Assembly (NCBI GenBank): GCA_003222835.1
Contig: QHXE01000606.1
Span: 1 to 12,253 of the forward strand
DNA from: Acidobacteriota bacterium
Lineage (GTDB): Bacteria > Acidobacteriota > Blastocatellia > Pyrinomonadales > Pyrinomonadaceae
Reading direction: 5' to 3'
Length of the DNA stretch: 12,253 nt
Shown: in pieces, positions 930 to 12,253 of the stretch
Layout of the letters: the number at the start of each line of letters is the position of its first letter
Position numbering within the stretch: position 1 is the first letter of the stretch
Notes under the pieces: generated by a model
Told to the model about the DNA's origin: nothing
The model's database searches: none
What the model saw: only the letters and a program-made list of their open reading frames with translations
Position numbers and translations under genes: made by a program

Positions 930-993
930 CGCGCCTGAGGCTTGCGCCGAGCGCGGGCCCGCGCGACCGTACTCTTAAAGGAGGATAGTTCGT

Positions 994-1560
994 ATGCGCA
1001 AAGGAATCACCATCCTGTTGTTCGGGATGCTCGCTCTGGGCGCGCCGCCGGCCGCCAACCGGCTGTGGGGGCAAGCGGAGAAGAAAGACGCCATGCCCGA
1101 TCCCGCAGTCAAGGTCGGAGACATGGCGCCGGATTTTACGCTGATGGACACGCACCGCAACCAAGTGTCCCTGCATGACTTCCGAGGCAAGAAAAACGTG
1201 GCCCTGGCATTTTACATTTTCGCCTTCACCGGTGGTTGAACCAAGCAAATGCAGAACTTCCAGCAGAACCTGGCAAAGCTGGAAGCTGCAGACACCCAGG
1301 TCTTGGGTGTTAGCATGGACAGCGCCTTCAGCAACGCGGCATGGGCCGAAAAAATCGGCGTCACTTTCCCCCTGCTAAGCGACTGGGGCGGCGACGTCAC
1401 CAAGCAGTACGGCCTTTACAATCCAAAATACAAAGCAGCTCGCCGCGTCAACTATCTCATCGACAAGAGCGGTAAAGTCGTCGAAATGCAGATCGACAGC
1501 GACGCCGTCGACCCAACCAAAATCGTCACCCTCTGCGAGCGCCGCAAGACCAAAGAATAG
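994..1560 (+). CDS. Exported AhpC/TSA-family peroxiredoxin, probable selenoprotein (in-frame TGA = Sec82)
   Basis: This is predicted to reduce peroxides in the periplasm. Read through one TGA (1237-1239), the frame gives 188 residues. Residues 1 to about 28 are a signal peptide: Arg-Lys, then a hydrophobic run ending near WGQA. The redoxin fold follows: VGDMAPDFTLMD, then the active-site strand AFYIFAFTGG-[TGA]-TKQM. In peroxiredoxins the site is PxxxTxxC. Here the Thr is residue 79 and the TGA occupies the Cys position, while the usual Pro is Ile75. The conserved active-site Arg is probably Arg150 or Arg151 before VNYLIDKSGKV. Cys181 (TLCERRK) near the C-terminus could resolve the selenenic acid. 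AAAGGAGG nine bases before the ATG supports the start. The simpler alternative is a TGC-to-TGA nonsense mutation. The intact 103-codon downstream frame and the SECIS-like hairpin argue against it. The next gene starts seven bases later and may be co-transcribed. Confidence 0.85.
1237..1239 (+). other. In-frame TGA at the peroxidatic cysteine position, probable selenocysteine codon
   Basis: The TGA lies between FAFTGG and TKQMQNF, exactly where the T-x-x-C motif of peroxiredoxins needs its catalytic cysteine. Frame and homology continue without a break to the TAG at 1558-1560. Replacement of a catalytic Cys by Sec is the usual pattern in bacterial selenoproteins. Confidence 0.78.
1250..1290 (+). 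promoter_or_regulatory. SECIS-like hairpin downstream of the TGA
   Basis: An outer stem TGCAG (1250-1254) pairs with CTGCA (1286-1290). After a two-base AA bulge, an inner stem CTTCCAGC (1257-1264) pairs perfectly with GCTGGAAG (1278-1285). The apical loop is 13 bases (1265-1277) with G as its second base, and 25 bases separate the TGA from the loop. As I recall the published bacterial SECIS rules (loop 3-14 bases, a G in the first two loop positions, 16-37 bases from the UGA), all three are met. A SelB-GTP-Sec-tRNA complex would bind here. A short competing stem (CCAG 1260-1263 with CTGG 1270-1273) is possible. Confidence 0.7.
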
Positions 1561-8448: not shown

Positions 8449-8464
8449 AAGCGGCTAGCCGCTT
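8449..8464. repeat. Perfect 16-base palindrome at the receptor stop codon
   Basis: AAGCGGCTAGCCGCTT is fully self-complementary and overlaps the TAA stop (minus strand, 8465-8463) of the TonB receptor. It could form a short hairpin in either transcript, or only reflect chance GC symmetry. Confidence 0.4.
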
Positions 8465-11400
8465 ACCAATCGATGGTTATGCCGAACTGCAGCCGGCGGG
8501 CATTATTGCCCTGAACGTTTCCATTCAAGTTTCCACAATCCGACGACCCTATCACGCCCCAGCTGGACGGGGCGCCGGCGTTGAAGCAGGGCTCATTCGG
8601 CTGCATGTGATTGAGCACATTGGTGGAATCAAAGTGCAAAGAACTGCTGAACCGCTCAGTGACCCTGATTCTCTTGCTGAGGCCCAAGTCCAGGTTCCAG
8701 AACGGAAAGCCGCGGATCGGAAAGGCTCCAGCTTGTCCATCCAAACCGAGGAGGGGGTTGCGGACTAGGTCGCTGAATGTCCCGCCGTTGGCTGGGCAGG
8801 TGGCCAGGACTGCTGCCTGGCTCAAAATGTTTTGGCCTGCTCCGGAGGTGCCGCAGTCGGTGCCGTTCACGGAGCCTCCAGTCACGTTCTGATGGCGGGT
8901 AGCGGTGTAACTGAAGTTCCCCACCATATTCTCGTTGGCTCCTACGTAGGCGGTGTTGCATTCGCCCAAGCTTCCGCAGTTGCCGTTTGCCGTTTGGAGC
9001 TGGACCGGGAAGCCACTACCGTAAACGAATAGCGGCGAGATATTCCAGCCACCTAGCACGCGGCCGAGCACCCCCTTTTGGCTCGAGAAGAACGGAGGGG
9101 CATAGTTGAAGAAGAGGTTGAAGTTGAATTTTTCGTCGTAGCTCTGCGGACCATACTGGGCATGCAAGTTCCAGGGATCGATGGTGGCAAAGGAGCTGGT
9201 GGCCTGGACAACGTTTCCTGTGCCGAGGGCCTTGGACATGGTGAAGTTGGTCTTCATGGTCAGGCCATGCCATTCCGTGAGAGTCAACTGCAGGAAGCCG
9301 GCGTTGTAGTTGCCATAGCCGTTGCTCACGGTGGTGATGACGGATGGCGCTTGACCATTGGCTCCGAAGGAGCTGTTGATGGGATCGCTTGTAAAGGTCC
9401 GGCCGAAGGTGAAGGAGCCGGCATTGGAGACGCCGGCCCAGGCATCGAACGGGTCAGAGACGCCCATGTTGCCAACATTGTTCGTGACAAAGGCTGTGGT
9501 GCAATTGGCGAAACCCCCGCAATAGCCTGGCTTGAGTGCGGCTTCAAAGAAGGGCTGCTTGGGGATGCTGCTCAGGTCAGTTCCGTAGTTGGTCGCAACC
9601 ATCACGTTTTTCCAGGCATTGGCGAAGCTCTGCCCGTTCAGGGTCAACATGTAGGGAACTGCGGTCAGGCTGTAATATTCAATTTCATTGGAAATTTTGC
9701 GGCCGATATAGCCGGCCTCGGCCAGGATTTTCGGACCGAACTGGTGCTGGATGGTAAAAGTGAATTCATCTGACCTGTTCGGCTTGAAATTCGCGTCGAC
9801 GGTTTCGCCCGCCCCAGTGGCGACGTCGTTGACACCGGGATACCACGGCTGTGGCAGGTTCGTACTCGGCGCGGGCAGCGGCGCAGTTGTTCCGTCCACA
9901 CCGACTCGGAAAGTGGTATTTGGGTTGCCTCCGCAGCCGCCCGTGATGCGGTTGGGACCGCCGCAGGTGTCGGGTTGCAACAAACCCGGAGTGAGCAGCG
10001 GAACCAGGAGGGGGTTGACCCCGTTGATCCGGCCAAAGATGCGAGCGTAGCCGCCGCGAACCACGGTATCCTTCGTGAAGTTCCAGGCGATTCCGACGCG
10101 GGGGCTGATTCCGCCGTAGAACGGGTCATAGGGATACTTGGTGTGGTTTACGACGTTGCGGACCGATGCAAAGCCAACGTTTGGCGCATAGGCGATGCCG
10201 TCAAGCGCAAGCTCCTTTTCCTTCTGAAAGAAGTCTTCGGCGCGGAAAATGTGGCCCGATGAGTCCACCATAACCGACTGGACGCCACCCGTGGTCTCGT
10301 AGGGGGGCATTTCCAGAGTGTAGCCAATGCCGTAGTTCAAGGTGAACTTCGGCCTCATTCGCCAACTGTCCGTCCAGTAGAGGCTGTATGTGGGCAGGAT
10401 GCTGTGGCCCGTTATTGGTGGCGACGACATACAGCCGGACGTAGCGGCGATGCCGGAGATGGCACACGACGTGATGGGGTTGAGGGGTAAGCCAGTGGAA
10501 ACCGACCCCAACCCGCGCGAGAAAAGACCCTGGCTCGAATCCACCATGCCCAGAACCATCGAGTAGAGGTTCCCATATTTGTTCGCAGAGGTGATGCCGG
10601 CAGGGACATAGCATGTAGCCGCCGTCTCGCACATTTTAATGCCGAGTGAGTCGAGGCCCACGCCATTGCCTTCTCCGATCAGATACTGCTCATAGGTGTT
10701 GATGGAACCGCCGTTGTCGTTCCGCTTGTGGGTGTCAACGTTGCGCTGGTAGCTGCCGCCGAACTGGAAATAGTGGCCGCCTCTCAACCAAGAGACGTCG
10801 TCGCGATACATGGTGTCATGGCCGTTCCAATAGCGCGTGCGAACGCTCTGGTTGTTGGTGTTGTAGGGAATAAACACGTTGTTGGAGTTTTCGCCGCCGA
10901 TTTCCAAGGCTGCCGGGTATCCGGCAACGTTGGGCACGCCGCTGGGAGAACCATAGGCCCACCAGTTCCGGGTAAAGCTAAAGTGGAAGTCGTTGGTGAG
11001 GCCGGGCCGAATGTCTTTGGTCAAGCCAGCGGTGTACAACCAAGTATTCTGAGGCTTACTGCGGATTGCCGCGTACTGGCCGTTGGTGTCGCCGGGGAAG
11101 AATCCGCCCACATCCCATTGGTTGTTCACAGTGTTGGTCAACTTGTAGTAGTGGTAGGTGCCATTGAAGTGCCAACCTTTGGTAGTTGCCGGATTGCGGA
11201 GTGGCGATGGAACCTGTATACCCGCAATAGTTTAAACCGTCGCCCTTGGTGCAGTCGTTGGGCGTAGGCAGGTAGGTGCTCCACAGAGTGCTAATCACGG
11301 GATTAAGACCCAAGCCACGCGGGTCACAGCCCCCTGTTCCTGTGCATGGAATGACGGTGCCTTGGGGTATCGTCCCGCCAGCGCATCCCTTACTACTGAC

Positions 11401-12253
11401 GCACGTCGCGGCATTCGCGGCGTAGCTCGTGGATGTTCCCGGCATGGTGGTGGCCGTGGGGTTTAGGTTGATGACCTCCCCATTGAGTTGCAGTAGGCCC
11501 GCACGCATCGCCGCAGTTGGCATGGTTCTCGTGAAGGTTGAAGCCTGCGGGAAACGGAAGCCCTCGTACAGACCGAATATAAACCAGTCTCCGCCCAAAA
11601 ATTTCGAATGGGGGATTTTTCCGCCAGCATCTGCCCCAAAGCGGCTGAAATGCGAGCTAACCAACGGGAACGGGGCCCACTGGCCCGCGGCGTTCTTGTG
11701 GTTATTGTTGTCCCACGAGTTGGACCCGCCAAAAGTAGTATCCTGGTAATAGTCGTAAACACCACCGTGCAAGGTGTTGGTGCCGCGCTTCGTCACGATC
11801 TCTACCTGGCTGCCGGCGCCACCGGTGAAGTCTGCAGTCTGGTTTGCCGTCGAAACCTTGAACTCCTCCACGCTGGCGACAGGGAGGGGAATGACCGCCG
11901 ATGGTGTCTGGTTGAAGCCAGCGCTGTGCATGGCGCCTGTGCCTCCGGCGGTTTCCCCACCAAAGCCTGCGATATAAGTGTTGTTGTCTCCGCTCATATC
12001 GTCGGTAGCAAAGCCGCCATCCACCAGGAACGAGTTTTGGTCAGAAGCGGCCCCGCCGACGTTGCCATTAATGTTCTGCCCAGGCTGAAGGACGGCCAGG
12101 GTCGATGCGTCGCGGCTGGTATTCGGCAGGTTATTGAGGGTGGCGCCGCTGAGGGTCGCGCCAACAGTCGCGCTCATGGTTTGCAACTCGGCTCCCGCCG
12201 AATAGGTCACCTCGACGGTCTGCGAAACTGAGCCGACCTCAAGCACAGCGTTT
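8463..12253 (-). CDS. TonB-dependent receptor, Oar/carboxypeptidase-regulatory type; N-terminus off the right edge, one internal frameshift
   Basis: This encodes an outer-membrane beta-barrel that would import large substrates, possibly glycans, powered by TonB. About 1262 residues are visible. The window starts in VGSVSQTVEV, which usually follows the carboxypeptidase-regulatory domain, so the signal peptide and that domain are missing. The plug region includes LNNLPNTSRD, the stretch QNSFLVDGG, and VEEFKVSTANQTADFTGGAGSQVEIVTKRGTN. Barrel strands follow, ending in RRLQFGITIDW with the terminal aromatic residue typical of outer-membrane proteins. The first part is read in one frame (12252 to about 11182) and the rest in another (about 11180 to 8463). 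Both belong to one protein: GNYQ in the first frame joins GWHFNGTYHYYKLTNTVNN in the second. One extra base near 11178-11184 explains it. It may be a true mutation (pseudogene) or an assembly error. The call as a receptor is secure; the substrate is unknown. Confidence 0.9.
11178..11184 (-). other. Frameshift site in the TonB receptor gene
   Basis: On the minus strand the frame changes around TACCAAAGG. Dropping one base, for example one A of AAA (11178-11180), gives a continuous SGNYQGWHFNGTYHYY. The old frame runs on as nonsense to a stop at about 11056. The new frame is open upstream only for about 20 codons. Confidence 0.75.

Follow-up and report, generated by a model that had tools for sequence, protein, structure and literature searches.

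Does the in-frame TGA that interrupts a peroxiredoxin-like reading frame in an acidobacterial genome mark the end of a broken gene, or does it encode the catalytic residue of a selenoprotein? The question arises in a stretch of 12,253 nucleotides, referred to here as the window, for which an initial annotation made from the sequence alone proposed an exported peroxiredoxin with selenocysteine (Sec) in place of the peroxidatic Cys. The features with which the question begins are the following.

Positions 994 to 1560, plus strand: Sec-peroxiredoxin gene, ATG to TAG, 188 codons when the TGA is decoded as Sec, assigned from the reading frame and an AhpC-TSA match.
Positions 1237 to 1239, plus strand: UGA codon for selenocysteine (Sec82), with TGA at the same codon in relatives.
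Positions 980 to 984, plus strand: Shine-Dalgarno-like GGAGG, 9 nt before the ATG, the same stretch also occurring 5' of the gene in the related locus L002.

Read directly, the frame from 994 to 1560 holds a single in-frame TGA, at 1237–1239, corresponding to residue 82. The read-through product matches Pfam AhpC-TSA above the cut-off (E 2.7e-36; 124.7 bits against a cut-off of 26) and also Redoxin (E 1.5e-23), and in alignment residue 82 lies opposite the active-site Cys of solved peroxiredoxins. The initial annotation was therefore right that the only in-frame TGA falls on the peroxidatic position and that the redoxin frame runs on to residue 188, and its gene boundaries were correct. It had also foreseen that ordinary annotation would split the gene into 81 and 103 residues. 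Calling of open reading frames under table 11 does exactly this (81 and 103 aa), and among the best 120 of 7958 matches in the protein database, 97 are the orphan C-terminal piece, 100–110 residues long, with a start at, or close to, the Met that follows the UGA. This exposes a recurrent annotation error: the gene is broken at the codon for its catalytic residue, and the searched protein database contains chiefly the orphaned second part. On the evidence set out below, 994–1560 is very probably a working selenoprotein gene of peroxiredoxin fold. The best-supported point is the maintenance of this codon for Sec; the chemistry, the location and the partner of the enzyme are inferred.

A scan of genome_contigs yielded 44 loci, the 29 closest of which (L001–L029) come from records whose titles name Acidobacteria or taxa of that phylum. 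TGA stands at the codon for position 82 in all 29, at 46–98% identity; the 15 more distant loci (L030–L044) carry Cys at the site, are CxxC proteins, or have alignments that do not cover the site. When 29 of the 30 loci fetched from a phylum search were added (L165 repeats L002 and was dropped), TGA occupied the site in 58 of 58 loci scored, 57 of them distinct (L184 repeats L029), at 39–98% identity; these relatives are the nearest by choice, and the position of the TGA was checked in the fetched loci only. The check suggested at the outset, whether homologues have Cys or TGA at position 82, thus returned TGA throughout the family and Cys in eight full-length database homologues (P0006, P0011, P0022, P0027, P0031, P0040, P0042, and P0055). 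An in-frame UGA where homologues have Cys, as expected of a selenoprotein, is therefore what was found, and it lies opposite the active-site Cys of peroxiredoxins, in keeping with the proposal of Sec at the peroxidatic position.

The downstream half of the gene is also under purifying selection. Comparison of the window with 12 relatives gave dN/dS values of 0.02–0.17 after the TGA and 0–0.16 in the mature part before it (rough values, as several dS exceed 1), and the low values after the TGA indicate both translation of the downstream part and selection on it. An unrooted tree built from 57 Sec rows and 8 Cys rows, in which long branches were flagged, requires six Sec/Cys changes, at least three of them forced by well-supported branches, which suggests that Sec and Cys have been exchanged more than once. 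When 297 genomes were searched with the Cys homologue P0031, 27 matches in 25 genomes reached E<=1e-30, and each of these matches contained one TGA.

Beyond the codon itself, the argument draws on the active site and on both ends of the protein.

Positions 1216 to 1239, plus strand: active-site segment IFAFTGGU (residues 75–82), the signature PxxxTxxU with Ile replacing Pro.
Positions 1444 to 1446, plus strand: Arg151, presumed catalytic Arg.
Positions 1534 to 1536, plus strand: Cys181, candidate resolving residue.
Positions 994 to 1080, plus strand: probable export signal at the N-terminus (residues 1 to about 29), from a hydrophobic stretch and low pLDDT.

The T-x-x-C motif named in the initial annotation stood as far as the Thr and the Sec position are concerned, but it is only part of the signature PxxxTxxC/U, whose Pro is Ile here and Ile or Val in 56 of 58 rows (57 relatives and the window); both this loss and the hairpin described below were absent from that annotation. 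Residue 75 is V in 33 rows, I in 23, P in one, and S in one, and T79 and G81 are each present in 58 of 58. Arg151, which from the alignment we take to be the catalytic Arg of peroxiredoxins, is R in 57 of 58 rows; the 58th (L024) is cut by a contig end, leaving R151 in all 57 complete rows. Cys181 has the same distribution (57 of 58, with L024 cut) and is invariant in a 33-row alignment. It is the only other conserved Cys, every other Cys column being common to at most three of the 58 rows, and its presence in 57 of 57 complete rows differs from the 1-Cys AhpE group, which is defined by having no second conserved Cys. The earlier suggestion of a possible resolving Cys181 is thus upheld as to conservation, which makes the residue a candidate for that role.

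The suggestion of an exported enzyme fared similarly. A hydrophobic 12-mer (mean Kyte-Doolittle >=1.6) lies within the first 40 residues in 56 of 58 family members, the exceptions being L189 and L014, whose starts were chosen by rule; this N-terminus argues for export, which we consider probable. An AlphaFold2 model (pLDDT 86.5) has residues 1–4 and 6–31 under 50, places residue 82 at the start of helix 82–91, and places residue 181 within a C-terminal helix (175–187). The top PDB fold matches are AhpE of Mycobacterium tuberculosis (TMt 0.85–0.89), followed by Sulfolobus Bcp4 and Bcp1.

Taken together, these features would fit an enzyme that is exported via its N-terminal signal and whose Sec82 attacks peroxide within a pocket formed by Thr79 and Arg151. 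The resulting selenenic acid would be resolved by Cys181 of the C-terminal helix, from the same or the partner subunit, giving a Sec82–Cys181 bond, and the enzyme would be restored by a thiol donor outside the cytoplasm. We regard this combination of signal-led export, peroxide attack by Sec82, resolution by Cys181, and an extracytoplasmic thiol donor as probable. The loss of the signature Pro could have altered the chemistry, and a less probable alternative keeps the Sec reading but makes the product an exported thiol:disulfide or other oxidoreductase rather than mainly a peroxidase; the Pro loss and the C-terminal Cys would then reflect a shift in function. The near-universal replacement of Pro by Ile or Val speaks for this alternative, as does Val at the same position in seven of the eight Cys homologues (P0042 keeps Pro), together with the retention of Pro in five of six distant Cys peroxiredoxins (L030–L033, L035, and L037). 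Furthermore, no NCBIfam model reaches its cut-off for the window protein, the best being NF006960 with 86.9 against 140 bits. It is opposed by the retention of Thr79, Sec82, and Arg151 in all rows that reach that far, by a closest fold that is the peroxiredoxin AhpE, and by a motif that is TxxU and neither CxxU nor UxxC. Peroxidase activity is the preferred reading of the gene.

For Sec to be inserted at UGA in bacteria, a suitable hairpin should follow the codon. SECIS elements are judged by the distance between the UGA and the loop and by a G among the first two loop bases.

Positions 1257 to 1285, plus strand: SECIS-like hairpin with an 8-bp stem (1257–1264 paired with 1278–1285) and a 13-nt loop (1265–1277), G at the second loop position.

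The hairpin starts 17 nt downstream of the TGA and has a UGA-to-loop spacing of 25 nt, so a SECIS-like hairpin is present shortly 3' of the UGA, with modest covariation. Synonymous codons were resampled within each of 33 genes out of the 58. The 13-codon segment beginning four codons after the TGA had a mean z of -1.89, and p<=0.05 was reached there in 61% of the 33 genes. In the other 11 segments the share was 3–18%; the value of 18% occurred twice, in the segment at the TGA, which overlaps the hairpin segment, and in one that starts at codon 16. Within the subfamily of the window protein (37 rows, 30 distinct), 95% of stem cells pair, and two pairs have changes on both sides. That count of covarying pairs was reached in 139 of 500 shuffles, whereas the paired cells and the covariation score were reached in none of 500; the loop-closing pair 1264–1278 fails in nine of the 30 distinct sequences. 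In a second subfamily (20 rows, of which 17 are distinct), another hairpin follows the TGA at a closely similar distance. Its loop is 3 nt long, 86% of its cells pair, and three pairs have changed on both sides (reached in 24 of 500 shuffles), but the number of pair types is not raised (reached in 347 of 500). L029 fits neither hairpin and stands outside both alignments. Rfam at gathering thresholds found no match over the window, which says little on SECIS hairpins. The evidence that this hairpin acts as a SECIS element is good but not conclusive.

The Sec machinery, named at the outset as a further check, was sought in the genomes of 29 relatives and proved to be present in most of them, but incomplete in some. 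SelA and SelD lie above the cut-off in 29 of 29, SelB in 28, and a tRNA-Sec with anticodon TCA was found in 23. Two profile searches gave no SelB above the cut-off in G015. No tRNA-Sec was found in G003, G006, G018, G019, G020, and G026, in a search of draft assemblies that scored 100 candidates per genome; a tRNA-Sec DNA query returned only 24–30-nt pieces, in two of these six. The Rfam tRNA-Sec model alone is above its cut-off in 26 of 29 relative genomes, but its best matches in the six are classed by ARAGORN as tRNAs for Ser or Leu. Among 14 control genomes, the numbers above the cut-off were one for SelA, two each for SelB and SelD, and five for the tRNA-Sec family. The structure and the machinery of the relatives point to a mechanism in which UGA 1237–1239 would be read as Sec by tRNA-Sec(UCA), brought by SelB on the hairpin at 1257–1285.

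Two side observations concern the machinery genes themselves. The SelD matches (L135–L164) hold an in-frame TGA, counted anywhere within the match, in 26 of 29 genomes, so SelD is probably a selenoprotein too; the matches without TGA, in G003, G010, and G019, miss the start of the profile. In addition, G009 carries two tandem tRNA-Sec genes (L063 and L074), 259 nt apart from start to start.

Sec insertion competes with termination at UGA codons in general. It is therefore conceivable, though we judge it improbable, that the UGA mainly terminates and yields an 81-residue peptide when selenium is scarce, as a selenium-dependent switch. The truncated product would be without the active site, and nothing was found that points to a function for it.

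Reading of the UGA as Trp or another standard residue, through a changed code or leaky read-through, is more improbable still. It draws on six database proteins with W at position 82 (P0003, P0008, P0009, P0013, P0021, and P0023), together with S in P0005 and L in P0010. All six W rows are labelled with the source jgi, which would fit gene calls made with TGA translated under table 4. Furthermore, W is incapable of peroxidatic chemistry, TGA serves as the stop codon of some genes of the family (e.g., L003 and L005), and tRNA-Sec(TCA), SelA, SelB, and SelD are present in most or all of the 29 relatives. Three further database proteins (P0002, P0004, and P0007) are without the stretch around the UGA, possibly because gene callers took the stop to be intronic; these three enter neither the Sec count nor the Cys count. 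Finally, a nonsense mutation, pseudogene, or sequencing error, for which the stop under table 11 is the sole point in favour, has next to no probability given TGA at the same codon in 57 relatives from other records and purifying selection after it.

Maintained Sec at this position places the gene within a known type of enzyme. Among selenoproteins, the Sec peroxiredoxin family (TxxU) is well established: Table 1 of a 2006 survey counts 12 (PMC1794560), and a 2016 survey gives 91 proteins in 78 organisms (PMC5029168). A 2026 review places Prx (TxxU) beside PrxU of Eubacterium acidaminophilum and describes PxxxTxxU as highly conserved (PMC13188914). The use of Sec in the phylum is likewise on record: the 2006 survey gives four selenoproteins of three families for Acidobacteria (PMC1794560), and three known selenoprotein genes were given in 2025 for Occallatibacter riparius (PMC12013277). 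The present peroxiredoxin may be among the proteins counted (PMC1794560; PMC12013277). Searches of the open-licence PMC literature revealed no description of the acidobacterial form.

The window protein resembles PrxU and Prx (TxxU) in its AhpC-TSA domain and in Sec at the TxxU peroxidatic position (PMC13188914; PMC5029168). Unlike PrxU, it is without the signature Pro and has a probable export signal and one conserved C-terminal Cys, and the NCBIfam PrxU equivalog NF040737 scores it at 70.9 bits, well short of the cut-off of 270. AhpE of M. tuberculosis (Rv2238c), besides being the closest predicted fold, forms with 2ywn the two closest solved structures by sequence (32–34% identity); however, it uses Cys, PDB titles describe it as a 1-Cys peroxiredoxin, and its match to the family profile ends at position 165, before Cys181. 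The BCP/PrxQ proteins (3hjp, 3drn, and NF006960) form the next group by fold and give the best NCBIfam profile, yet under its cut-off, and their resolving Cys sits elsewhere than Cys181. Thus, Sec peroxiredoxins and Sec use in the phylum are known, whereas the Pro loss, the C-terminal Cys, the probable export, and the low NCBIfam scores set this form apart.

Of 297 sampled genomes of the phylum, 256 had a match to the peroxiredoxin query at E<=1e-10. Ranked by score, the top 46 rows (43 genomes) contain exactly one TGA each; the first row without a stop is at rank 47, and both kinds occur lower down. A close match to the Sec-peroxiredoxin gene (>=116 bits) is present in 30 of the 297 genomes. 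SelA was found in 192 of the 297 at E<=1e-60 and in 191 above the cut-off; it accompanies the Sec-peroxiredoxin gene in 28 of 30 carriers, against 164 of 267 other genomes (Fisher p 1.7e-4; counted by eye). The two carriers without SelA are G169, which has SelB above the cut-off, and G294, which does not. SelA is thus common without the Sec-peroxiredoxin gene, and these genomes have other selenoproteins. AhpC-TSA matches that hold one TGA, anywhere in the match, were counted separately and, with the present gene among them, number three of 17 in G002, four of 15 in G004, four of 14 in G023, and six of 31 in G028; with SelD added, G028 would exceed the six-gene mark for selenoprotein-rich organisms as used in the 2016 survey (PMC5029168).

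A broader, tentative reading, plausible rather than probable, is that some soil Acidobacteriota use selenium for envelope peroxide defence through an exported, 2-Cys-like Sec peroxiredoxin subfamily without Pro (30 of 297 genomes), alongside further Sec-redoxins in the same genomes. According to the overall figures of the 2016 survey, more than three quarters of selenoprotein-rich bacteria are anaerobes (PMC5029168). The present results place Sec peroxiredoxins in soil Acidobacteriota, against the mostly anaerobic selenoprotein-rich bacteria of that survey. If the broader reading is true, some soil Acidobacteriota are selenoprotein-rich, and selenium-dependent peroxide resistance would be directly testable. 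The family also offers a natural series (Sec, Cys, missing Pro, and invariant second Cys) with which the separate contributions of selenium and Pro to peroxidase chemistry can be tested.

The neighbourhood of the gene gave no conserved partner among the 29 related loci. LeuC lies near the gene in 11 of 29 and leuD in 10 of 29, all among L001–L013, and the other 18, including L003, L007, and some short contigs, have no match to any of the six window neighbours. An ORF with BNR repeats (sialidase-like) occupies 1568–2791 of the window, its first possible start 7 nt after the peroxiredoxin stop; none of the 29 loci contains a counterpart. With the leu genes confined to L001–L013 and the BNR gene without counterparts, no partner was found to be conserved. 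Downstream of its intact gene, L007 holds a partial and decayed second copy (2739–2854), which corresponds to the C-terminal region of the Sec-peroxiredoxin. On the minus strand of the window, 8463–12246 contains what we read as a receptor-like gene, without an NCBIfam match, in two overlapping frames of 922 and 398 codons; in L010 the counterpart is open throughout, in one frame of 1186 codons, and the window copy thus looks frameshifted.
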